Below are positions 41,589 to 52,739 of a stretch of DNA of 64,000 bases, piece by piece. The stretch's first letter is position 1. Each line of letters begins with the position of its first letter. This DNA comes from Ekhidna lutea. GTDB taxonomy: Bacteria; Bacteroidota; Bacteroidia; Cytophagales; Cyclobacteriaceae. Both the position numbers and the translations under genes were made by a program. The notes under the pieces were generated by a model. The model did no database searches. It saw only the letters and a list, made by a program, of their open reading frames with translations, and was not told the origin of the DNA. Where the stretch lies: assembly GCF_900188325.1 (NCBI RefSeq), contig NZ_FZPD01000002.1, positions 372,001 through 436,000 on the forward strand, written 5' to 3'.

Positions 41589-41662
41589 GGTCCGGTAGTT
41601 CAGTTGGTTAGAATGCCTGCCTGTCACGCAGGAGGTCGCGAGTTCGAGTCTCGTCCGGACCG
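41589..41662 (+). tRNA. tRNA-Asp (anticodon GTC)
   Basis: A complete cloverleaf of 74 bases without encoded CCA. Acceptor GGTCCGG pairs with CCGGACC, the anticodon stem CCTGC/GCAGG carries the loop CTGTCAC with GTC at 41623-41625, and the T arm GCGAG-TTCGAGT-CTCGT is standard. The discriminator base is G, as for Asp. The 3' end is the source sequence of the tandem array that follows. Confidence 0.97.
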
Positions 41663-41998
41663 CTAAAAGCACAAACCCATCTCATTTGAGGTGGGTTTTT
41701 TGTTTGAAAATATGGAGGTCGCGAGTTCGACACTACGCGTGCCGGTGCTCGTCCGGACCGCTAAAAGCACAAACCCATCTCATTTGAGGTGGGTTTTTTG
41801 TTTGAAAATATGGAGGTCGCGAGTTCGACACTACGCGTGCCGGTGCTCGTCCGGACCGCTAAAAGCACAAACCCATCTCTTTTGAGGTGGGTTTTTTGTT
41901 TGAAAATATGGAGGTCGCGAGTTCGACACTACGCGTGCCGGTGCTCGTCCGGACCGCTAAAAGCACAAATCCATCTCTTTTGAGGTGGGTTTTTTTTG
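41663..41998 (+). repeat. Tandem array of 98-bp units made of a tRNA-Asp 3' part and a terminator
   Basis: The sequence CTAAAAGCACAAA recurs at 41663, 41761, 41859 and 41957, exactly 98 bases apart. Each full unit contains a terminator, a spacer ending TTTGAAAATAT, and the last part of tRNA-Asp (GGAGGTCGCGAGTTCGA ... CTCGTCCGGACCG). In the copies at 41714-41760, 41812-41858 and 41910-41956 the T-loop GT is replaced by 17 bases, CACTACGCGTGCCGGTG. Units 1 and 2 differ from 3 and 4 in the terminator loop (CATT vs CTTT). No anticodon or 5' half is present, so none can be a normal tRNA. Confidence 0.9.
41673..41701 (+). terminator. Terminator of tRNA-Asp (first of four copies)
   Basis: Stem AAACCCATCTC/GAGGTGGGTTT (one T-G pair), loop ATTT, then T residues. 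Near-identical copies lie at 41771-41799, 41869-41897 and 41967-41997. The last one has a longer T run and one base change in the stem. Confidence 0.9.
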
Positions 41999-42003
41999 CT
42001 TAT

Positions 42004-42080
42004 TGTCTCGTCCTGAAAAAAGTTGACCATAAATGATAAAAACATGGTCAAGAAGAAACGAAAGCTTACCGGGCCATATA
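42004..42080 (+). mobile_element. Remnant of an insertion-sequence left end (IS3-like)
   Basis: TGTCTCGTCCTGAAAAAAGT followed by TGACC looks like the terminal inverted repeat of IS3-family elements of Bacteroidota. Thirty bases on, an ATG (42044) opens a frame MVKKKRKLTGPYKY that starts like OrfA but runs straight into the next tRNA-like copy and stops at 42167. Nothing else of a transposase is present. The identification rests on memory of similar ends and needs a database match. Confidence 0.45.
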
Positions 42081-42085
42081 AATAT

Positions 42086-42131
42086 GGAGGTCGAGAGTTC
42101 GACACTACGCGTGTCGGTCCCATCCAGACCG
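42086..42131 (+). repeat. Fifth, decayed copy of the tRNA-Asp 3' part
   Basis: GGAGGTCGAGAGTTCGACAC and the following TACGCGTGTCGG repeat the enlarged T-loop unit with several substitutions; the acceptor strand reads CCAGACCG and no longer pairs well. A broken version of the terminator (AACCCTTCTCATTTGAGATAA) follows. It lies directly after the insertion-sequence remnant. Confidence 0.7.
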
Positions 42132-42224
42132 CTAAACCCTTCTCATTTGAGATAACTTATTGAATTATTATTAATTAAGACTTTAATTTTACTGCAACAT
42201 CAATAGTTTAAATTTTTGATAATG

Positions 42225-45200
42225 CTACTTCTTAACCAATGTATGGCTATAAGTTCGATTCCCTACTTCCATTTGTAGTAAGTAAACACCTTCCGGATAT
42301 CCGTTGAGATCAATCTCCAATAAGTTATCATCCGTGGCAATATTCCAAATTGCAATTTCTTGACCTTTTAAATCGACCATTCGAATAGTTGGAGTTCCAA
42401 CATTGAATTCTGAAGAAAACGATACAAACAGTTTATCCTCAATCGGATTAGGATAGACGTTGATAACCAATTGTGATGGACCTTCGAATACCACCAATAC
42501 TGCTTCGGAGTGAGATTGAGTTCCATCATAATCGGTCTGCTTAAGACGATAATAATTTACTCCCAAGAACGGCTTCTTGTCAGTATATTGATAATCCAGC
42601 CTTTCATTGCTATCACCGGCCCCATCTATATTTTCAAGTGCATCAAAATGTTCTCCATCCCTGCTTCTTTCTATCGTGAAATAATCATTGTTAATCTCAG
42701 TTGCAGTAGACCAATCCAGGACAACATACTGATCCAGAATTGAAGCTTTAAACTCGATCAATTCGATTGGAAGTGGATCGTTCAAACCACTTGGAGTAGT
42801 GTGAGGAGCAAACGAGGAGAATGATGAGATACCAATCGTCAGAGATTTGCCGTTGGTTGAATAATTCTGAACTTCCGGATCAAGATTGATTCGTGTACCT
42901 CCTGCAATGAATGGATCAAGACTGTTGGCCACTCCGGTAATTTTCGTAATCCTTAAATGCGCCTCTTCATCAAATGTGAATGATTCTGCAGAAAGCAGTT
43001 CATCGCCCAAATCTGTATGTTCCTCCGCAAGTGCGTAGAATCGAATATATACACCCATGGAATTGGATGGTTGAATAGTTGGGGTTATATACCAGTTTCT
43101 GTCAAGGACATAATCCACGGTATTGTCACGCACATTATCATCAGTAGGATCAACAATACGTACTCCCCAGCAGGTGCTACTCAGGTTGTTTCCAACAGGG
43201 TTGATGGAGAAAACAATATTTCCAAGATTATCAGAAACGTCAATCCATTGGTACCCGCTGATGCTTACACAGCTTGCACCGGATACAGTATAATCGGCTT
43301 GCAGGGATCGAACATTAGGTGTTCCGGACGCAAAAGGATCAGCATCATTAAATGCATCGGTGTTTGTCAACGCTTCAATGTAATCAGGGATGCCATCAGC
43401 ATCTGTATCTGTCGTTGCGTTAACGGGTGCTGTAGCTCCTCCATCAATAAGGATTTGCTCCATCGCATCGCTTAAACCATCGCCATCGGAATCAGTTCCC
43501 CCGGATGCCGTTGGATCGTTTACATCATTTGGATCATTGTCGTTTAATACTTCATAATAATCAGGCACCCCATCACCATCTGTATCTGTATCAAGTGCCG
43601 GGTCTGCTGCTCCACCTGCATTGGCTATATAAACTTCAAATGCATCCGGAATGCCATCACCATCAGAGTCAGCTGCTCCTCCCGTTGTGGGTTGGTCACT
43701 ATCGAATGGGTCTGTACCATCTCTTACCTCCAAATAATCCGGGATTCCATCACCATCTGTATCAGTTGATTTGCTTATAGGTCCTGTAGCTCCACTTGTT
43801 ATTAGCAATTGCTCCAATGCATCCGTAATCCCATCTCCGTTGATTCCAGTATCATTCATTCCTTGATTAGGCGTACCTCCATCCACATTATCGTCCAGGT
43901 TACCATCTGCTACTGGACTATTAACATCATTAGGGTCGGAACCTTTTGCCACTTCAAAATAATCAGGAATACCATCCCCGTCTGAATCAGTCACAAAATC
44001 AGAGCCCGTCCCTAATCCAAAATTGGTAGCCCCGGTAAAGTTGATACCAGAGAACACAACCACATCTGAAGTAAATGAGGTAGCTGGGGCCAGCTCCAAA
44101 ACACCATTTGTAAAGTCTGCATCATTGTCTACAATCAATAAGAAATCTGATGCAGATTTAGCTCCGTAACCTAAACCTGTGAGATCCATGGTGACCCGAA
44201 CGTTTCCAGCGTTTCCGGTTTCATTCACTCCCCAAATGCGGATCATACGTTCAGTGACACCCGCTGGTAGATTTAAGACACCTGTGGTTGTTGTCAATCC
44301 ATCGTCATTACCCCATACCACATAATCGCCATCAGATAACGAGGTGGCATTATCCATGGTCACTATCGCATCCGGATTGATACTTGTGGACGAGCTTTGA
44401 GACAAGTCCTGCGAAGCATTTAATCCGATTCCCGCAATATCATTTGAATAAGCGTTGTAGTTGTAGACCTCTGCTGCTGCAACAGTATATGCATCAAAAG
44501 GATCTGCCCCGGAAATATCCAGCGTAATTCCGTACTTAATAGCTAAGTAAGAGGCTACATCTCTTCTGTCCGCATTGGATAATCGAGCGCTGTAACTAAT
44601 CACCTCTGCGACCTTACCATCAAACGCCTGCCCAGTAGTATAGCGATCACCGATGATATAGTCTACGTTAGATTGATTGGCAAAAGCTCCAAGCGCAGAA
44701 GCATCATCAACCTGTACCTCATCGACAAAAATCTCTTGCGCTGTAGCTCCTGCATTGTTTCTTGAATTAATGATTTGACTTGTACTATAAGATGCCAATG
44801 CGGTATTATCTGCTCTTTCATAGGTTCCAACTGCATGGGTCAGCACTTCGTTTACAATGGTTCCTGAATAAGTACCAAAGAATAGTCCATTATCATTTCC
44901 AGACGCATATCCTAATATCGCCTGAACCGATGATGAGGCGTCCATGGTATTATCTGGCTGCATTACAACAAAATAATCATGGGTGTAGAATCCTGCACCT
45001 GAAATACCATCCATGTAATCATTCGTTCCATCAAAATCGATTAATGGATTTCCATTCAGTGAATTGGATATTAAAGTAGGTCTGGAATCAGATGCTCCCT
45101 GAGCTGCATCATTGTTATTGCCACTTTGATCGGTCCAGTCGGAAATCATACTGGCACTCTCAGTAATGCCATCATCTGCTTTCAGCCATATGGATAAGTT

Positions 45201-48200
45201 GGTTCCAACGTCTCCTGGTGCCGGTGGATTTGGCACAGCGAAGGTGAAGTAGTAATTGTCACTAAATGATACACCAGTAAAAATGATTGTATCACCAGAC
45301 ATGGAGCTTCCTGTTACTTCGCTCACAAGATCTGCTGAAAAGTCACTGTCATCATCGATAAGCAATGTAAAGCCAGCCGGATTGGTCGGGAAGGCGTTGA
45401 ATCCATCAATATCTCCTCCATATATTCTTACAGTTACTGTTCCGGGTGTTCCTGTAACATCTACTTGCCATTCTGCTGCTAATCGCTGATCATATCCAGC
45501 GGCTAGTTCTGATGTCTGAAGCGTACTATTGCTTGCTGTATTTTTACCCCAGACAATATAATCCCCTGAACCAAGTGAGCTCGCATCCTGCATTCTGACA
45601 ATGGCTCCAACATTCTGACTTTCAGACTTAGGTTGACTCAAACCATGATCCAGGTTTGCTCCAATGCCTGCGATGTTTTCTGCGAAAGTAGTATTGTCGT
45701 AGACGTGCACCCCACCTACCGTATAAGCGTCAAATGGATCTGCTCCCGAAATATCAAGTGTAATACCATATTTGATCGCCAGGTATGAAGCTACATCACG
45801 TCTGTCAGCGTCTGAAAGTCTGGCGTTGTAGCTAATAACTTCGCTAATTTTTCCATTAAAAGTCGAAGAAGATGTAAAGTCGTTTCCAATTCTAAAAAAC
45901 TGATCATCCAATTGTCCGAAAGTTCCACTTTCGGCCTCAGTTACTTCAGTCCCATCTACCACAAGGTCTTGTGCTGTCGCTCCGGCATTGTTCCTTGAGT
46001 TTACGATCAGTGCCAGATCATAGGTTGATCCATTATTCAATGCAGCACGATAGGTCCCAGGTCCTTCTGCTATATGTGTAATGATCTCATTGGTCACCCC
46101 ACTGGCACCCGCACCTAAAAACAGTCCGGAAGCTTGACCAGACTCGAACCCAATCACATATCCATTGGTAGAAATATTATTTAATTGCGCATCTGTATCT
46201 ATAACTACAAAATAGTCGTCCGTATAAAACCCGGAAGTACCATCTAGAAAATCACCGTCAAAATCCAATGCCGGATTGAAATTCATACTATTGTTAACCA
46301 AAGTTGGCTTATCGGCATTATCACCCTGGCTAGCATCGCTTTCGCCCGCTCCCAGATTTACCCATGAAGAAACTAAGTTGCTCGATTCTTCGACTCCCTC
46401 ATTGGCTTTAAACCAGACGCTAAGACCACTTGAAATTCCTCCCGGAGAGGTCGTTTGAATATCCCCCGCAATGGTGAAGTAGTCACCATCTGCGAAATCA
46501 ACATCTGTAAAGGTCACTAGCACCTTACCTGCAACCGTTGAAAATGTGCCACCTGTAATGAGTGTTCCTGTTGCAAGATCTGTTGGCATGGTGGCGGTGC
46601 TTGGAGAAACAACCAGATTGACTGTTGAATTCGATTGATCAACTCCAAAACTTGTAATATCAAAGGAAATGGTAACCGTACCCACATCTCCGGTTTCATC
46701 TACTTTCCAGATTTTATTTAATCGTTCTACCGTACCTGTCGGCACATTAGCAGTGGTCAAAGTATTTGATGCACCATCGTTACCCCAAATAAAGTAATCA
46801 CCATCATCCAGGCTTGATGCGGTGGAAACTTTTACTATAGATCCGTCATTTACACTTTGAGAAGTCGTTTGATTAAGGCCCTGGGTAGTTTCATTTTTTC
46901 CAATTCCTGCAATATCATTCGGGTAGGCTGTGTCGTCGTAGACATGCGTCCCACCTACCGTATATGCATCAAATGGATCTGCGCCTGAAATATCGAGTGT
47001 AATACCATATTTAATAGCCAGGTATGTAGCCACATCTCTTCTATCGGCATCTGACAGCTTGCTACTATAGGAAATCACCTCAGCGATGGTTCCTTCAAGA
47101 CCATCTGAGAAATCAAATGGATACCCAAGCTGGTAACCGACATTATCAAAATTTTGGTGGTTAACCGCGGTTACTTCCGTATCATCTACCACAACTCCAT
47201 TCAGAATGATGTCTTGCCCGTTTAATCCTGCATTCAGGCGATCATTTATGATCATAGGGCTTTCGTACACCACCGTTCCGGTTCCATCAGTGTCTGCTGA
47301 AACATATCCACCTCCGGCAGATTGGGTATGTGAAATAATCTCATCTGCCAAGCTAGCACTTGATGGACCTAATTCAAGCGCACCAAAATCCCCAGCCTCA
47401 TATCCAATGATGGTTCCGGCATCCTCCGCTGCACTTGCAAGAAAATCAGGATCTACTACGACAAACATTTCTCGTGTATAAAATCCTGCATCCCCAGTCA
47501 TATAATCAACATCAAATGATATTGCCTCATTCGAATTAATCGCAGAAGAGGTAAGTGTTGGTTTGAATGCATCCTGCCCCTGCAGTGCGTGATTCCCACT
47601 CCCACTATGGTCCAGCCATTCAAAAACCGCATTGCTACTTTCACTAACTCCTTCGTTGGCTTTTAACCATAATGTCAGATTAGTTGCAACTCCTCCGGGA
47701 CCAGGCTCGGTAATATTACCAGCCAGGGTAAAGTATTCGTCATCATTAATCGTGACTCCTGTGAAGGCCACATAGTTCCGTCCATTCACCGTAGAGGTTG
47801 AGCCTGTGGTAATACTGGTAACTGCATCATTATCAAGATCTGCTGGCATAGTGGCTGTGCTTTGCGCAATTAACAGCTCATAGCTTGCCGCAGGACTAAA
47901 CCCAAGCTCTGTCAAATCATACGTAACATCAACTGTTCCAACATTATTGGTATGGTCTGCTCGCCAAATTCTGGTGACTCTGTTTGTTAATCCGGTGCGC
48001 GTGCTAGCGGTCAGTGCTGTGCTTCCGCCATCATTACCCCATACCAGGAAGTCTCCATCATCTTGGCTGGAAGCATTGCCAATGGTCACCAGACCGCCTA
48101 GTTCTTCACTTAATGAGCTCGTCTGATCTAATGCTTGCGAATCGTCCTGTCCAATTCCTGCAATGTTACTATCATAGGCACCATGAGTCGTTCGATCATA

Positions 48201-51200
48201 AATAGATGCACCCATGACCGTATAGTTTTGAGAGGTTATATCTATGGTAAGTCCATATTTAATAGCTAGGTAGGTGGCAATATCTCTTCGTTGAGCTGCT
48301 GTTTTAAGGGCACTATAGCTAATTACTTCAGCTACTCGTCCATCAAAAGCATCTCCATCTTCCGCATTTGATCCAATGGAGTACATCACATCGTTATAAT
48401 GCGCAGTAAAAGCGTTGGGGGTTGTAACAGTGGTGAGAGTGCCATCGATATATAGCTCCATACCTGTTGCAGCCCCATTATCTCTAAAGTTGACAATCAT
48501 AGGTTCCCTATAAGAAATCGTGGTTCCAGTCACTCCGATTCGATAATCTGTAGCATCACTGAAGGCATGTGTTAAAACCTCATCGGTTAAAAAGCCGGTA
48601 TGGTCTCCAAAGGTCATCCCGTTGAAATCTTCGTGATTCAATCCAATGACACAGTCATCCCCTGAAACGGAGGTATACGTCTGCTTTGGATCTACTACTA
48701 CAAAGTATTCATTGGTTGAAAACCCAGCTGCGGCTTTTAATGCACCATTTGTGCCATTGAAGTCTACTACTTCATTTCCATTTAAACCACTGCTTAATAA
48801 AGTGGGTTGCTCATCAACTGCCGGTTGTTTGGCGCTGTTTCCATTTCCACTTTTATCAGCCCATTCCTCAATGAGGCTTCCATTAAGTACCGGACCTTCA
48901 TTCGCTTTTAACCATAAAGCCAAATTTGTCCCCTGATCACCAGGACCTGTTACCGAGGAGAAGGACCCTCCGAGTGTGAAGTAATCATTGTCATTAAAGT
49001 TTACTCCGCTGAAAGTCACAATGGTTCTACCATTGACCGTGCTCACCGTTCCTGCAGCACTTGGAGTAGCTGATGCCATAGTAGTGGTAGTATGCACAAG
49101 TAGGTTGAATGTTGATGTGTTAACATTTATAGGTAGCGTGGTTAAGTCAAAAACGACATCTACTGTTCCTACCTCATTCGTTTCATCTGCTCTCCAAATT
49201 CGCTCCAAACGATCTGTCACTGCACCACCCGGTACGTCAGCAGAATTAATGGTTAATGCTGCACCATCATTACCCCATACGAGGAAGTCGCCATCATCCT
49301 GACTGGAGGCACTGCTCATTTGTAACAGCGATCCATTATTCACACTTTGGCTAGTGGTTTGGTCCAATCCTTGCGAATCATCCTGACCTATTCCGGCAAT
49401 GTCATTACTATACCCGCCATGCGTTGTACGATCATAAATGGTGACACCTCCGGCCGTATAATTTTGAGTTGTGATATCGAGTGTGATTCCATACTTAATG
49501 GCCAGATAAGATGCAACCTCTCTCCGGTTTGCATCAGTACTTCTTGCGCTAAAGCAAATCAGCTCCATCATATAGCCATCATATGGATCTGCCTCCTCGC
49601 CACTTTGTCCCAAACGATATGATACGTTATTGAAGTGTGCTAAAAAAGCATTCGGTGTAGTGACAGTAGTCGATAAACCATTAATATAGAGTTCTATATC
49701 ATTTGCTGTCACATTTTCCCTGAAGTTGATAATCATTGGATCTGTATAAGCAATGGTTGCTCCTTCTACACCGCTTATATAATTATTCGCATCATCCTGA
49801 TAATGCGTAAGTACTTCATCTGTCAGAAACCCTGTTGCGGCTCCAAATTGAAGACCACTAATATCATCATCGTCCCATCCTATGATATAATCAACAGCTG
49901 AGGTGCTAACGTAATCCTGGTTTGGATCCAGGACGATAAAATAATCTTGCGTATAAAATCCTGTTTGAGAATATAAATCATCGTCATTTTCATCAAACTC
50001 CAATGCCGGATTACCATTTAAATAACTTGCAATATAAGTAGGCTCATCATTGGGATCTACTTGCTTTGCACTATGACCATTGCCACTTCTGTCGGTCCAC
50101 TCTCTTACATTATTATTATTATTCCCCTCCACAATTCCTTCATCTGCCTTGAGCCATAGTTCCAGGTTGGTTAATTGATCTCCGGGCGCCTCGGTAATAA
50201 GATTGCCTCCCAAGGTGAAATATTCATTGTCATTGAATAAGATATTTTCAAAAGTTACAATGGTTCTTCCATTGACTGTACTAACTGTTCCAGCACTACT
50301 AACTGAAGCACCGGAGAGCCCGGTAGGCATTGTGGCCCCACTTCCAGCGATGAGTAAATTGAAAGTAGAATTGAAGTCAACTGCTACTTCGCTTACATCG
50401 AAGGATACGTCAACAGTTCCGACTACCCCGGTTTCGTCTACTCGCCAAATTCTGGTGAGTCTATTGGTTACCCCTCCTGGCACATCACTTGTCGTAATAT
50501 CCAGCGATCCTCCATCATTACCCCAAACCAGGAAATCCCCTTCACCCAAACTTCCCGGATTACCCATTGAAACAATACTACCATCATTTATACTTTGGGA
50601 ACTTGTCTGGTTTAATCCCTGTGAGTCATCTCGGCCAATCCCGGCAATGTCACTATCATAAGCTCCATGTGTTGTACGATCGTAAATAATAACACCACCA
50701 GCTGTATAATCCTCAGATGTAATATCCAAAGTCAAACCATATTTAATTGCCAAATACGATGAAACATCTCTGCGTTCAGTATCAGACAATCTAGCTCCAT
50801 AGCTTATGATCTCAGAAATTTGACCATCGTAGATATCTCCGCCAACCCCATTTGAACCAATGATATAATCTTCGTCAAATAAATTTGAAAAGGCATTGGG
50901 GGTTGTTGTTGTGGTTAGTGCACCGTTTAGATACAATTCCTGATCATTGGCAGCAGCATTATTTCTAAAATTTATTAAGACAGGATCAGAAAAGGTCTGC
51001 GTAGTACTTTCGATTCCACTTCGGTAATTGTCAGCAGCAACTGAATGCGTCAACACTTCATCTGTTAGCTGACCTGTATGATCCCCAAAGAAGACACCAC
51101 TAAAATCCACACCATCCCATCCTATAATAGCTTCATCACCATCAGTACTTTGATATATTTCATTTGGATTGATGATTAAAAAATAATCATGCGTGTAAAA

Positions 51201-52739
51201 ACCTGATCCTCCGGCAAGTACATCATCTGCCCCATCAAAAATTAGACTAGGGTTCCCATTTAGTCCTTCCGTGTCTAAAGTTGGCTGAGCAGCACTCGTA
51301 CCCTGACTTGCATCATTATTATTGCCGCTTTGATCTGCCCAGGTAGAAACTGAGTTACTACTTTGCGTAACACCTTTATCCGCTTTTAACCATAGTTTTA
51401 AATAAAATGGACTGTCGCCTGGTGCAATACCTGACGGTGTGGTTGCTCCGAGTGTGAAAAACTCCCCATCACCAATATTTACTCCGGAAAAAGTGACCGT
51501 GCCGTTTGAATAAGTACCGGTGTATGTTGTGCCTGTGCTTAGATCAGCAGGCATGGTTGCTGTATTGGGAGATACAATTAAATAAAACGTGCTTGTATTA
51601 TTAAAACCTGTAGGTGATGTATCAAATGAAAGATCGATAGTTCCCACATCAGCACTCTCATCTACTCGCCATATCCTATTCACTCTGGCATCTACTCCAG
51701 CAGGTACGTTACTGGTAGTGGAGGAAAGTGCTCCATTATCATTGCCCCACATAAAAAATTCATTGTCCTGAAGGTCAGATGCATTACTAACAGTTAGTAT
51801 CGCATCAGCATTTGTACTAATGGTACTTGTTTGATTAAGACCTTGAGAGTTATCGAGAGCAATACCTGCGATATCATTTGAGTACGCGGAATGATTAAAT
51901 ATCTCAACTCCTCCAACAGTATATGCATCGGCCGGGTCTGCTCCGGATATATCCAATGTAACACCATATTTAAGTGCGAGATAGCTTTCAACATTCCGCT
52001 GATCACTTGCACTTAAGTTGGAGCCGTACATGATTATTTCCGCAATTGAACCATCTAGTGTAAATCCTTCACCACCAGCCCCATCACCTCTTGCTCCTAC
52101 TCGAATATTTGTAGTTTCGGAAGCTGTTCCAATTCCTGCCGTCGATTGATCATTTACACCTAAAACATATGAATTAAATGCTGTTGTAGTAATGATAGAT
52201 GAGGCTATTGTCCAGTCGCCTGTGACATCAATAGCACCTGCATCGTTTGTTGTTCCGCCAATAATTGCCCGCCATTCGTCACCAGAACTATAAAACTGCC
52301 ATTGCCTGTTTGCTCCGGTTCCATTATCTGCCCTTGATATGATAGTACCACTTTCTCCGTCAACTATATTCCAAACAGCAAATACCGACCAATTATCGGT
52401 ACCTCCAACGTAATTCAATACATTTCCACCCTCAAGAAAGTCATCTGTTCCTGCTGTAGAGAAGATAATGGAAGGATATCCAGCTACCTGACCTGTATTA
52501 AAAGTTGGTCTTGCAGCTGCAGTAGCCTGCGAAACGTCATTTCCGCTTGGTGATTGATCGAGCCAGTTGAGCACGGCATCCCCATCTTCTGCTGCGTCCG
52601 CTGCTGCTTCTTCTACTCCAGCATCAGCTTTTAGCCATAATTCTAAATTCGTTGAAACGTCTCCGGGCGATTGTGCAGATAGTCCTACAAATAAGAATAA
52701 TCCAAAGATAAATAATAGAACTCTCCTCAACAGTTTCAT
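42225..52739 (-). CDS. Giant T9SS-secreted surface protein with seven LamG-like repeats
   Basis: A 3504-residue protein with signal peptide (MKLLRRVLLFIFGLFLFVGLSAQ). Seven repeats of about 410 residues begin near residues 25, 440, 850, 1265, 1680, 2100 and 2505. Each contains LWLKADxGV, W.DQSGNNNDA, a concanavalin-like domain ending EVISYSARLSDADRRDVASYLAIKYGITLDI, then NDIAGIGxDxSQGL, GDFLVWGNDG and IWRVDETGxVGTVDVSFD. Then come thrombospondin type 3 repeats (about 2915-3135, DSDGDGIPD type), a further domain, a fibronectin-like module (PIELIEFKASILDQYVVLDWS) and a T9SS type A sorting domain (VYPNPIEDK ... GVYLLQMEVGNRTYSHTLVKK). A cell-surface adhesin or matrix protein is likely. Confidence 0.92.
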   Translation of the reverse strand: MKLLRRVLLFIFGLFLFVGLSAQSPGDVSTNLELWLKADAGVEEAAADAAEDGDAVLNWLDQSPSGNDVSQATAAARPTFNTGQVAGYPSIIFSTAGTDDFLEGGNVLNYVGGTDNWSVFAVWNIVDGESGTIISRADNGTGANRQWQFYSSGDEWRAIIGGTTNDAGAIDVTGDWTIASSIITTTAFNSYVLGVNDQSTAGIGTASETTNIRVGARGDGAGGEGFTLDGSIAEIIMYGSNLSASDQRNVESYLALKYGVTLDISGADPADAYTVGGVEIFNHSAYSNDIAGIALDNSQGLNQTSTISTNADAILTVSNASDLQDNEFFMWGNDNGALSSTTSNVPAGVDARVNRIWRVDESADVGTIDLSFDTSPTGFNNTSTFYLIVSPNTATMPADLSTGTTYTGTYSNGTVTFSGVNIGDGEFFTLGATTPSGIAPGDSPFYLKLWLKADKGVTQSSNSVSTWADQSGNNNDASQGTSAAQPTLDTEGLNGNPSLIFDGADDVLAGGSGFYTHDYFLIINPNEIYQSTDGDEAIIGWDGVDFSGVFFGDHTGQLTDEVLTHSVAADNYRSGIESTTQTFSDPVLINFRNNAAANDQELYLNGALTTTTTPNAFSNLFDEDYIIGSNGVGGDIYDGQISEIISYGARLSDTERRDVSSYLAIKYGLTLDITSEDYTAGGVIIYDRTTHGAYDSDIAGIGRDDSQGLNQTSSQSINDGSIVSMGNPGSLGEGDFLVWGNDGGSLDITTSDVPGGVTNRLTRIWRVDETGVVGTVDVSFDVSEVAVDFNSTFNLLIAGSGATMPTGLSGASVSSAGTVSTVNGRTIVTFENILFNDNEYFTLGGNLITEAPGDQLTNLELWLKADEGIVEGNNNNNVREWTDRSGNGHSAKQVDPNDEPTYIASYLNGNPALEFDENDDDLYSQTGFYTQDYFIVLDPNQDYVSTSAVDYIIGWDDDDISGLQFGAATGFLTDEVLTHYQDDANNYISGVEGATIAYTDPMIINFRENVTANDIELYINGLSTTVTTPNAFLAHFNNVSYRLGQSGEEADPYDGYMMELICFSARSTDANRREVASYLAIKYGITLDITTQNYTAGGVTIYDRTTHGGYSNDIAGIGQDDSQGLDQTTSQSVNNGSLLQMSSASSQDDGDFLVWGNDGAALTINSADVPGGAVTDRLERIWRADETNEVGTVDVVFDLTTLPINVNTSTFNLLVHTTTTMASATPSAAGTVSTVNGRTIVTFSGVNFNDNDYFTLGGSFSSVTGPGDQGTNLALWLKANEGPVLNGSLIEEWADKSGNGNSAKQPAVDEQPTLLSSGLNGNEVVDFNGTNGALKAAAGFSTNEYFVVVDPKQTYTSVSGDDCVIGLNHEDFNGMTFGDHTGFLTDEVLTHAFSDATDYRIGVTGTTISYREPMIVNFRDNGAATGMELYIDGTLTTVTTPNAFTAHYNDVMYSIGSNAEDGDAFDGRVAEVISYSALKTAAQRRDIATYLAIKYGLTIDITSQNYTVMGASIYDRTTHGAYDSNIAGIGQDDSQALDQTSSLSEELGGLVTIGNASSQDDGDFLVWGNDGGSTALTASTRTGLTNRVTRIWRADHTNNVGTVDVTYDLTELGFSPAASYELLIAQSTATMPADLDNDAVTSITTGSTSTVNGRNYVAFTGVTINDDEYFTLAGNITEPGPGGVATNLTLWLKANEGVSESSNAVFEWLDHSGSGNHALQGQDAFKPTLTSSAINSNEAISFDVDYMTGDAGFYTREMFVVVDPDFLASAAEDAGTIIGYEAGDFGALELGPSSASLADEIISHTQSAGGGYVSADTDGTGTVVYESPMIINDRLNAGLNGQDIILNGVVVDDTEVTAVNHQNFDNVGYQLGYPFDFSDGLEGTIAEVISYSSKLSDADRRDVATYLAIKYGITLDISGADPFDAYTVGGTHVYDDTAYPNDIAGIGKNETTQGLNQTTSQSVNDGSIVKVSTASSLDDGDYFIWGNDGASNTLTTANVPTGTVERLNKIWKVDETGDVGTVTISFDITSFGVDQSNSTVNLVVSPSTATMPTDLATGTLITGGTFSTVAGKVLVTFTDVDFADGDYFTIAGDIQTTSPGGISSGLSVWFKANEGVEESSNLVSSWVNLGAGESDASQGDNADKPTLVNNSMNFNPALDFDGDFLDGTSGFYTDDYFVVIDTDAQLNNISTNGYVIGFESGQASGLFLGAGASGVTNEIITHIAEGPGTYRAALNNGSTYDLALIVNSRNNAGATAQDLVVDGTEVTEAESGTFGQLDDQFFRIGNDFTSSSTFNGKISEVISYNARLSDADRRDVASYLAIKYGITLDISGADPFDAYTVGGVHVYDNTTFAENIAGIGANLDHGLSQPKSESQNVGAIVRMQDASSLGSGDYIVWGKNTASNSTLQTSELAAGYDQRLAAEWQVDVTGTPGTVTVRIYGGDIDGFNAFPTNPAGFTLLIDDDSDFSADLVSEVTGSSMSGDTIIFTGVSFSDNYYFTFAVPNPPAPGDVGTNLSIWLKADDGITESASMISDWTDQSGNNNDAAQGASDSRPTLISNSLNGNPLIDFDGTNDYMDGISGAGFYTHDYFVVMQPDNTMDASSSVQAILGYASGNDNGLFFGTYSGTIVNEVLTHAVGTYERADNTALASYSTSQIINSRNNAGATAQEIFVDEVQVDDASALGAFANQSNVDYIIGDRYTTGQAFDGKVAEVISYSARLSNADRRDVASYLAIKYGITLDISGADPFDAYTVAAAEVYNYNAYSNDIAGIGLNASQDLSQSSSTSINPDAIVTMDNATSLSDGDYVVWGNDDGLTTTTGVLNLPAGVTERMIRIWGVNETGNAGNVRVTMDLTGLGYGAKSASDFLLIVDNDADFTNGVLELAPATSFTSDVVVFSGINFTGATNFGLGTGSDFVTDSDGDGIPDYFEVAKGSDPNDVNSPVADGNLDDNVDGGTPNQGMNDTGINGDGITDALEQLLITSGATGPISKSTDTDGDGIPDYLEVRDGTDPFDSDQPTTGGAADSDGDGIPDAFEVYIANAGGAADPALDTDTDGDGVPDYYEVLNDNDPNDVNDPTASGGTDSDGDGLSDAMEQILIDGGATAPVNATTDTDADGIPDYIEALTNTDAFNDADPFASGTPNVRSLQADYTVSGASCVSISGYQWIDVSDNLGNIVFSINPVGNNLSSTCWGVRIVDPTDDNVRDNTVDYVLDRNWYITPTIQPSNSMGVYIRFYALAEEHTDLGDELLSAESFTFDEEAHLRITKITGVANSLDPFIAGGTRINLDPEVQNYSTNGKSLTIGISSFSSFAPHTTPSGLNDPLPIELIEFKASILDQYVVLDWSTATEINNDYFTIERSRDGEHFDALENIDGAGDSNERLDYQYTDKKPFLGVNYYRLKQTDYDGTQSHSEAVLVVFEGPSQLVINVYPNPIEDKLFVSFSSEFNVGTPTIRMVDLKGQEIAIWNIATDDNLLEIDLNGYPEGVYLLQMEVGNRTYSHTLVKK

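Follow-up and report, generated by a model that had tools for sequence, protein, structure and literature searches.

The window, by which we mean the whole 64,000-nucleotide stretch of Ekhidna lutea DNA analysed here, contains a single intact copy of tRNA-Asp, at 41589-41663 (ARAGORN; Rfam RF00005, 70 bits, with the Rfam end at 41662). The gene is followed by broken copies of itself, a feature that it has in common with the tRNA-adjacent GIY-YIG elements described below. TRF placed a tandem repeat at 41650-41995 with a period of 98, 99% matches and a score of 671, and we are certain that the array is real. The features of the locus are as follows.

41589..41663, + strand: intact tRNA-Asp (GTC), the parent gene (ARAGORN, RF00005 70 bits)
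41664..41761, + strand: unit 1, with terminator, spacer, tRNA-Asp 3' part carrying an insert, and acceptor 3' strand (sequence, TRF)
41673..41701, + strand: intrinsic terminator of tRNA-Asp, which recurs in every unit (sequence, hairpin z -4.9)
41731..41747, + strand: 17-nt T-loop insert of unit 1 (sequence)
41762..41859, + strand: unit 2, the same as unit 1, with its insert at 41829-41845 (sequence comparison)
41860..41957, + strand: unit 3, with one difference and its insert at 41927-41943 (sequence comparison)
41958..42132, + strand: unit 4, with terminator, presumed IS-like piece and worn T-arm copy; insert at 42103-42118 (sequence, folding)
42004..42080, + strand: presumed IS-like piece splitting unit 4 (single copy in the genome, weak plasmid resemblances)

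Each clean unit is made up of the tRNA terminator, a spacer, the 3' part of tRNA-Asp with an insert in its T-loop, and the acceptor 3' strand. The 17-nt insert, CACTACGCGTGCCGGTG, occupies 41731-41747, 41829-41845 and 41927-41943, in each case in place of the T-loop's GT. Upon sequence comparison, units 1-3 differed from one another at 0-1 of 98 positions. The suggestion of the first-pass annotation that one altered copy had been amplified is supported. That annotation had also given the 98-bp period correctly, with each start placed one base early, and had seen the same insertion replacing two bases, which the three clean copies confirm. Its "fourth" and "fifth" copies are a single unit, split by the piece at 42004-42080, so that the array contains three clean T-arm copies and one worn copy. 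In unit 4 the terminator (41958-41997) is followed by this piece, which we take to be IS-like (~42004-42080), and then by the worn T-arm copy, which extends to 42132 and whose insert could form a longer hairpin (CGACAC-TACGC-GTGTCG). The IS-like piece is present once in the source genome; its first 26-34 bases weakly resembled unannotated plasmid stretches in five records (E 0.004-0.05), from Hymenobacter, Spirosoma, Adhaeribacter, Runella and Persicobacter.

The terminator hairpin folded better than its shuffles (z -4.9), the worn copy scarcely beyond them (z -1.25), and the 48-nt T-arm copy no better than they did (z 0.26). The array DNA occurs at one location genome-wide, and a 16-mer of the insert, TTCGACACTACGCGTG, matched 18 genome contigs and 2 viral contigs in public collections, with one match each. 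When ORF translations and sequence were read by eye, neither a GIY-YIG ORF nor a remnant of one was found within the 98-bp unit. An integrase gene is likewise absent between tRNA-Asp and the repeat of its 3' end, and the 98-bp units contain no such ORF. Directly downstream of the array, on the minus strand at 42225-52739 of the window, lies a gene for a repetitive protein of 3504 aa that ends in a T9SS sorting domain, a domain that fits Bacteroidota.

Tail copies of this kind are not confined to tRNA-Asp. Among 30 fetched loci of the source genome, nine tRNA genes had 12-mers of their own 3' end downstream (Phe, two Val, Gly, Asp, Met, Arg, Cys and Pro), and an integrase island of ~33 kb has a tenth set, copies of tRNA-Thr, at its far end. 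A stricter test, which required 15 nt with at most one mismatch within 1 kb and which misses Asp and Cys of the source genome, was positive for 7 of 33 tRNAs in the source genome (G000) and 10 of 32 in its congener G141. Further out, it was positive for 9 of 37 in G221, where a single cluster of whole tRNA-like genes supplied four of the nine and two were tRNA-Glu genes with one common repeat, and for 5 of 23 in G431, a member of a different family in which 23 of the 28 tRNAs found were scanned. Controls with the tails of other tRNAs gave 1/1048, 0/986, 7/1314 and 2/502 for G000, G141, G221 and G431, and the reverse-complement control gave 0.

The array behind tRNA-Asp itself was absent in G141 and G035, and G035 seems, as read from its sequence, to retain a similar gene downstream of tRNA-Asp. 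Seven further members of the genus, inspected by eye, showed an Asp copy in G242 only, with a different insert. An Asp unit with a GIY-YIG ORF was found in 0 of 9 other genus members (700-900 nt behind tRNA-Asp by eye, or the tail-copy scan). Three loci held more extensive copies: a tandem tRNA-Cys-like cluster with a period of 128-130 bp behind a tRNA-Arg with a common 3' end (L170, G221), four nearly whole tRNA-Met copies with a period of 162 and a D-loop insert (L156, G141), and a nearly whole tRNA-Gly copy with inserts in two places (L035, source genome).

The position at which a copy departs from its parent is biased toward the T-loop. From 239 tRNA contexts we obtained 135 copies, 99 of them distinct, and identity was lost inside the T-loop in 72 of the 99, in the T-stem or acceptor in 13 and further 5' in 14; these fractions are no unbiased census, because the loci were partly chosen for carrying such elements. 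The T-loop consensus TTCRANY was present in 92 of 99 parents versus 19 of 99 copies. Compared with mononucleotide shuffles, the 72 T-loop inserts folded somewhat better, with a mean z of -1.3 and half of them below -1. The source genome contains two main insert types and a separate one at Met. Short hairpin-like inserts occur at Asp, Phe, one Val, Gly and one Pro type, and a long insert of ~100 nt occurs at Val, Arg, Cys, Pro and Thr. Related inserts were also seen at different tRNAs, for example the GTGGAACGCCACTCCGATC-type at Phe, Pro and Ala and a longer form of it at Asn.

The long insert type has relatives of its own. The pattern TTCACGANGGG..GAGTAATCC matched 32 of 290 genomes of the family, the source genome included, and the reversed pattern matched none. 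Of 38 long-type elements in 30 fetched loci, 33 had a tRNA no more than 700 bp upstream, and in 29 of the 38 the tail of that same tRNA followed. In an alignment of 25 elements (A2), in which the pairings drawn were the 5' arm with the tRNA tail plus inner stems, 34 cells had changed on both sides compared to 16 in shuffles (0 of 500 reached this value), and 28 of them lay in the 5' arm; the number of pairs changed on both sides was less striking, as 33 of 500 shuffles reached it. A model, R1, built only from genomes of the source genome's family, matched under strict filters in 4 of 295 genomes class-wide, again including the source genome. Two long-type places in the source genome lie away from any tRNA (L125, L127), and a long-type repeat unit, TTCACGAGGGG..GTATGAG, occurs several times intergenically with no tRNA nearby at C6:240200-241060 (L132, 8222-9017).

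This other insert type of the source genome resembles the E. coli RtT RNA, as judged from the following searches. On a 4-kb stretch around E. coli K-12 tyrT/tyrV, a locus picked for its likeness, the four best R1 scores were the four RtT units (E 7e-6 to 2e-4; next match 1.3). Conversely, the Rfam model RF00391 gave 14 sub-threshold matches in 5 of 9 chosen genomes, the best two at E 5e-4 and the rest at 0.05-0.84; 13 of the 14 overlapped elements found by the pattern or by R1, and the 14th lay one period further in the same array. Among 14 control genomes RF00391 matched in E. coli only. No match in the window or the chosen genomes rose above the gathering cut-off of RF00391, the relatives' best score being 32 versus 45. 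The Asp unit was not matched by R1 when the window was searched, and by this measure it does not have the conserved RtT core and pairing.

Several other origins were considered for these inserts. The one viral match to the long-insert pattern was read as chance, because it lies inside a long ORF on a contig with no tRNA, and searches of plasmid and phage DNA with one long-type element as query returned nothing. A hammerhead-like reading of the long insert (GATGAG..CGAAA) was dropped, because eight loci gave no Rfam ribozyme match and CUGAUGA, the hammerhead motif, is incompletely present. The source genome has four Y1_Tnp (RAYT-like) genes (L128-L131), whose flanks hold other repeats, such as GGTTTAAGTCTTTTGGACTTAAACC at L131. 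Of four strings sought there, TTCACGA, GTATGAG, ATGAGTAA and GTTCGAA, none was found; the shorter strings ATGAGAA, TACGC and one ACGCCAC do occur. We set RAYT/REP mobilisation aside; it may still apply to the short inserts.

Relatives carry units in which the repeat contains a gene. A small GIY-YIG ORF lies inside the units behind tRNA-Glu and tRNA-Val of G221 and tRNA-Leu of G431, and GIY-YIG-bearing units also stand behind Asp, Met, Val, Leu, Glu, Asn, Thr and Ser; Pfam gave E 4e-20 and 6e-17 for two of the relatives' ORFs. Across 25 family genomes there were 127 GIY-YIG matches, of which 86 had an open frame under 240 aa; the 41 with frames over 240 aa were left out of the count of tRNA adjacency. 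A same-strand tRNA or tmRNA was located within 700 bp upstream of 42 of the 86 small genes, 6 more had just a downstream tRNA close by, and the remaining 38 lacked a nearby tRNA on the same strand, whether before or after the gene. Ten of the 42 are second-in-line ORFs; 31 first-in-line genes were tested, and a 32nd, located at a contig end, was excluded. Two of the 31 stand behind tmRNA, and in 24 no more than 64 bp separate the end of the tRNA from the start of the domain. When scores were compared with those of other tRNAs, a copy of the gene's own tRNA was detected after the ORF at 16 of the 31, four by modest margins, and no copy at the other 15. As a control, long GIY-YIG genes (UvrC-length and others, with three long-frame loci from the class-wide sample counted among them) had a tRNA in the locus in 0 of 16 cases.

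In five arrays, tandem units 1 and 2 were identical at 345/346, 359/361, 373/379, 379/384 and 390/430 aligned positions (91-99.7%). Behind tRNA-Asp itself, a GIY-YIG ORF was found in five genomes of other genera (G001, G003, G011, G017 and G020; genera g2, g4, g12, g18 and g21). A broken Asp copy follows that ORF in G001 and G003 by score and in G011 and G017 by eye; none was seen after the ORF in G020 (g21). The source genome and G141 have in common a GIY-YIG gene between tRNA-Gly and tRNA-Leu, located after a hairpin-broken 5' part of tRNA-Leu. In several ORF-bearing units the T-loop is kept and it is the anticodon or D region that is broken, so that a single, fixed site of cutting in the T-loop is insufficient to account for all of them. 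The long RtT-like insert was present at 1 of 38 GIY-YIG loci. A class-wide sample comprised 26 single-domain genes, for the most part the top scorer of each genome. An upstream tRNA was present at 2 of them, in both cases together with a copy, and 1 other had a downstream tRNA only; the link between GIY-YIG genes and tRNAs is thus strong in the family (42/86) and weaker elsewhere (2/26). Two family genomes also have a single-domain GIY-YIG gene behind tmRNA, at distances of 219 and 255 bp (L289, L294).

We believe, with somewhat better than even confidence, that the Asp array is an ORF-less, non-autonomous derivative of a GIY-YIG element that cuts a tRNA gene and restores it. Beside the observed architecture, the association with GIY-YIG genes, the T-loop break bias and the near-identity of tandem units, we infer cutting, a repair route, shielding and mobilisation in trans. 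The full form of such an element would consist of an intact tRNA, a terminator, a small GIY-YIG gene, a hairpin-broken tRNA copy with the tRNA 3' end, and a second terminator. The GIY-YIG enzyme would cut the tRNA gene in the T-arm or elsewhere, and recombinational repair would copy the cassette in, such that an intact tRNA is restored upstream and the displaced part remains as the copy. The insert would destroy the cut site in this copy, which would both shield it and prevent a second tRNA from forming. As the restored tRNA would keep its site and all units share one 3' tail, repeated cycles or unequal exchange could build up a tandem series of near-identical units. Any unit that has lost its ORF, as the 98-bp Asp unit may have, would persist or be driven in trans. 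A broader proposal, which we put forward tentatively and hold to be less likely than not, is that Bacteroidota harbour tRNA elements of a self-limiting class. Each would be a small GIY-YIG cassette that cuts a tRNA gene and then reconstitutes it, with a palindrome-broken copy left behind, and tandem arrays and ORF-less satellites would arise in this way at many isotypes; the E. coli RtT repeats may be a distant ORF-less form.

Part of the same evidence could be produced by passive repeats. One tRNA 3' end would be duplicated, a dispersed palindrome would insert into the palindromic T-arm, and unequal crossing-over would amplify the product, with GIY-YIG genes merely settling behind tRNAs and being co-duplicated. 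The near-identical units within each array, the many arrays with no ORF, the recurrence of related inserts at different tRNAs and the better-than-shuffled folding of roughly half of the breaking inserts (mean z -1.3, n = 72) are all consistent with this scheme. However, it gives no reason to expect that many unrelated tRNAs across several genera would share the same T-loop break, or that GIY-YIG ORFs would lie within units ending in a broken copy of the same tRNA, and we consider it rather unlikely. A function at the RNA level, as suggested for E. coli RtT, would have the arrays yield processed RNAs with a T-arm-like end, which perhaps act in stress or on tRNA-processing enzymes. The long insert type covaries and resembles RtT, and the available passages of one study report RtT as an RNA released from tRNA transcripts and located near tRNA genes in Pasteurellaceae (PMC4986893). 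The Asp array itself may likewise yield a small T-arm-like RNA, as the first-pass annotation had proposed. RtT RNAs elsewhere are reported as transcribed, whereas the Asp unit was not matched by the RtT-like model in the window, its T-arm copy folds no better than shuffles, and it sits behind a strong terminator. For the arrays we hold an RNA function to be improbable.

The first-pass annotation had also read the array as a possible fossil of repeated site-specific integration into the tRNA 3' end, which would point to a tyrosine integrase. In the source genome, tRNA-Thr does house an island of ~33 kb that encodes a tyrosine recombinase (C11:361760-394800; L133, L134), and island and tRNA have 26 bp in common, running from the T-stem's 5' strand through to the 3' end. 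This shared T-arm end is intact, however, and the tail copy bearing the long insert is located immediately beyond the island's far end. Translations read by eye over 36-48 kb of the window revealed no integrase-like ORF, the inserts vary between tRNAs, and the units contain only a terminator or, in relatives, a GIY-YIG endonuclease ORF. Repeated events at the tRNA 3' end fit the data, and the integrase fossil, already disfavoured, is very improbable in the form in which it was written.

If the GIY-YIG reading is true, it would explain a class of tRNA-tail repeats, perhaps including the E. coli RtT locus, whose RNA has only a tentative role. It would also mean that a nuclease gene can inhabit an essential gene harmlessly if it restores that gene at every round. 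A testable role would follow for the small GIY-YIG genes behind tRNAs, with the clear prediction that the parent tRNA gene is cut and the broken copy spared. Tail arrays (RtT), tRNA-linked GIY-YIG enzymes (SegB) and endonuclease ORFs that carry a gene end are each known separately. Among the matches listed by a full-text literature search, whose coverage excludes most subscription journals, none dealt with GIY-YIG genes or with 3'-tail arrays located behind tRNAs in Bacteroidota, nor with a combination of the three known kinds at many tRNAs of that phylum; with the literature covered in part, this is weak evidence of novelty.

The closest array of known kind is E. coli RtT (RF00391), in which each of the tandem units that follow a tRNA closes with 19 nt of that tRNA's 3' end, CCA included, with identity beginning in the T-loop at the junction AATAATCC or GAGTAATCC. 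The Asp array is like it in that a unit stands behind a tRNA and ends in that tRNA's 3' tail, and unlike it in its other, shorter insert. The long insert type shares with RtT the 5' arm, the GGATGAGAACC..GGTTCGA core and the GAGTAATCC end. The 4-kb E. coli tyrT/tyrV stretch has no annotated GIY-YIG gene, and RtT-like sequences have been linked to BIME repeats in the passages available of another study (PMC2965389). SegB, a free-standing GIY-YIG endonuclease, is described in the accessible part of its report as cutting within tRNA genes, and the motif RAWTSGAAC was present at 23 of 83 sites. For a tRNA gene to be amplified in tandem, both SegB activity and recombination genes are required (PMC13096335). 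By our reading, RAWTSGAAC would correspond to the reverse complement of the T-arm sequence GTTCGAATC. SegB of the T-even phages thus parallels the present elements in its position beside tRNA genes, in tRNA-gene cutting and in recombination-driven tandem amplification; it differs in being a phage gene and in amplifying an intact tRNA, and the passages seen mention no broken tRNA tail. Certain fungal mitochondrial endonuclease ORFs insert with a C-terminal gene copy that replaces the end of the host gene, and in part of these cases, according to the passages available, the native gene end stays downstream; the ORF in atp9 is of the GIY-YIG type (PMC3630166). Those ORFs reside in organelle protein genes rather than bacterial tRNA genes, and no broken-loop arrays appear in these passages. 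Taken together, SegB and the fungal mitochondrial ORFs suggest an element that cuts a tRNA gene, rebuilds it and leaves a broken copy behind.
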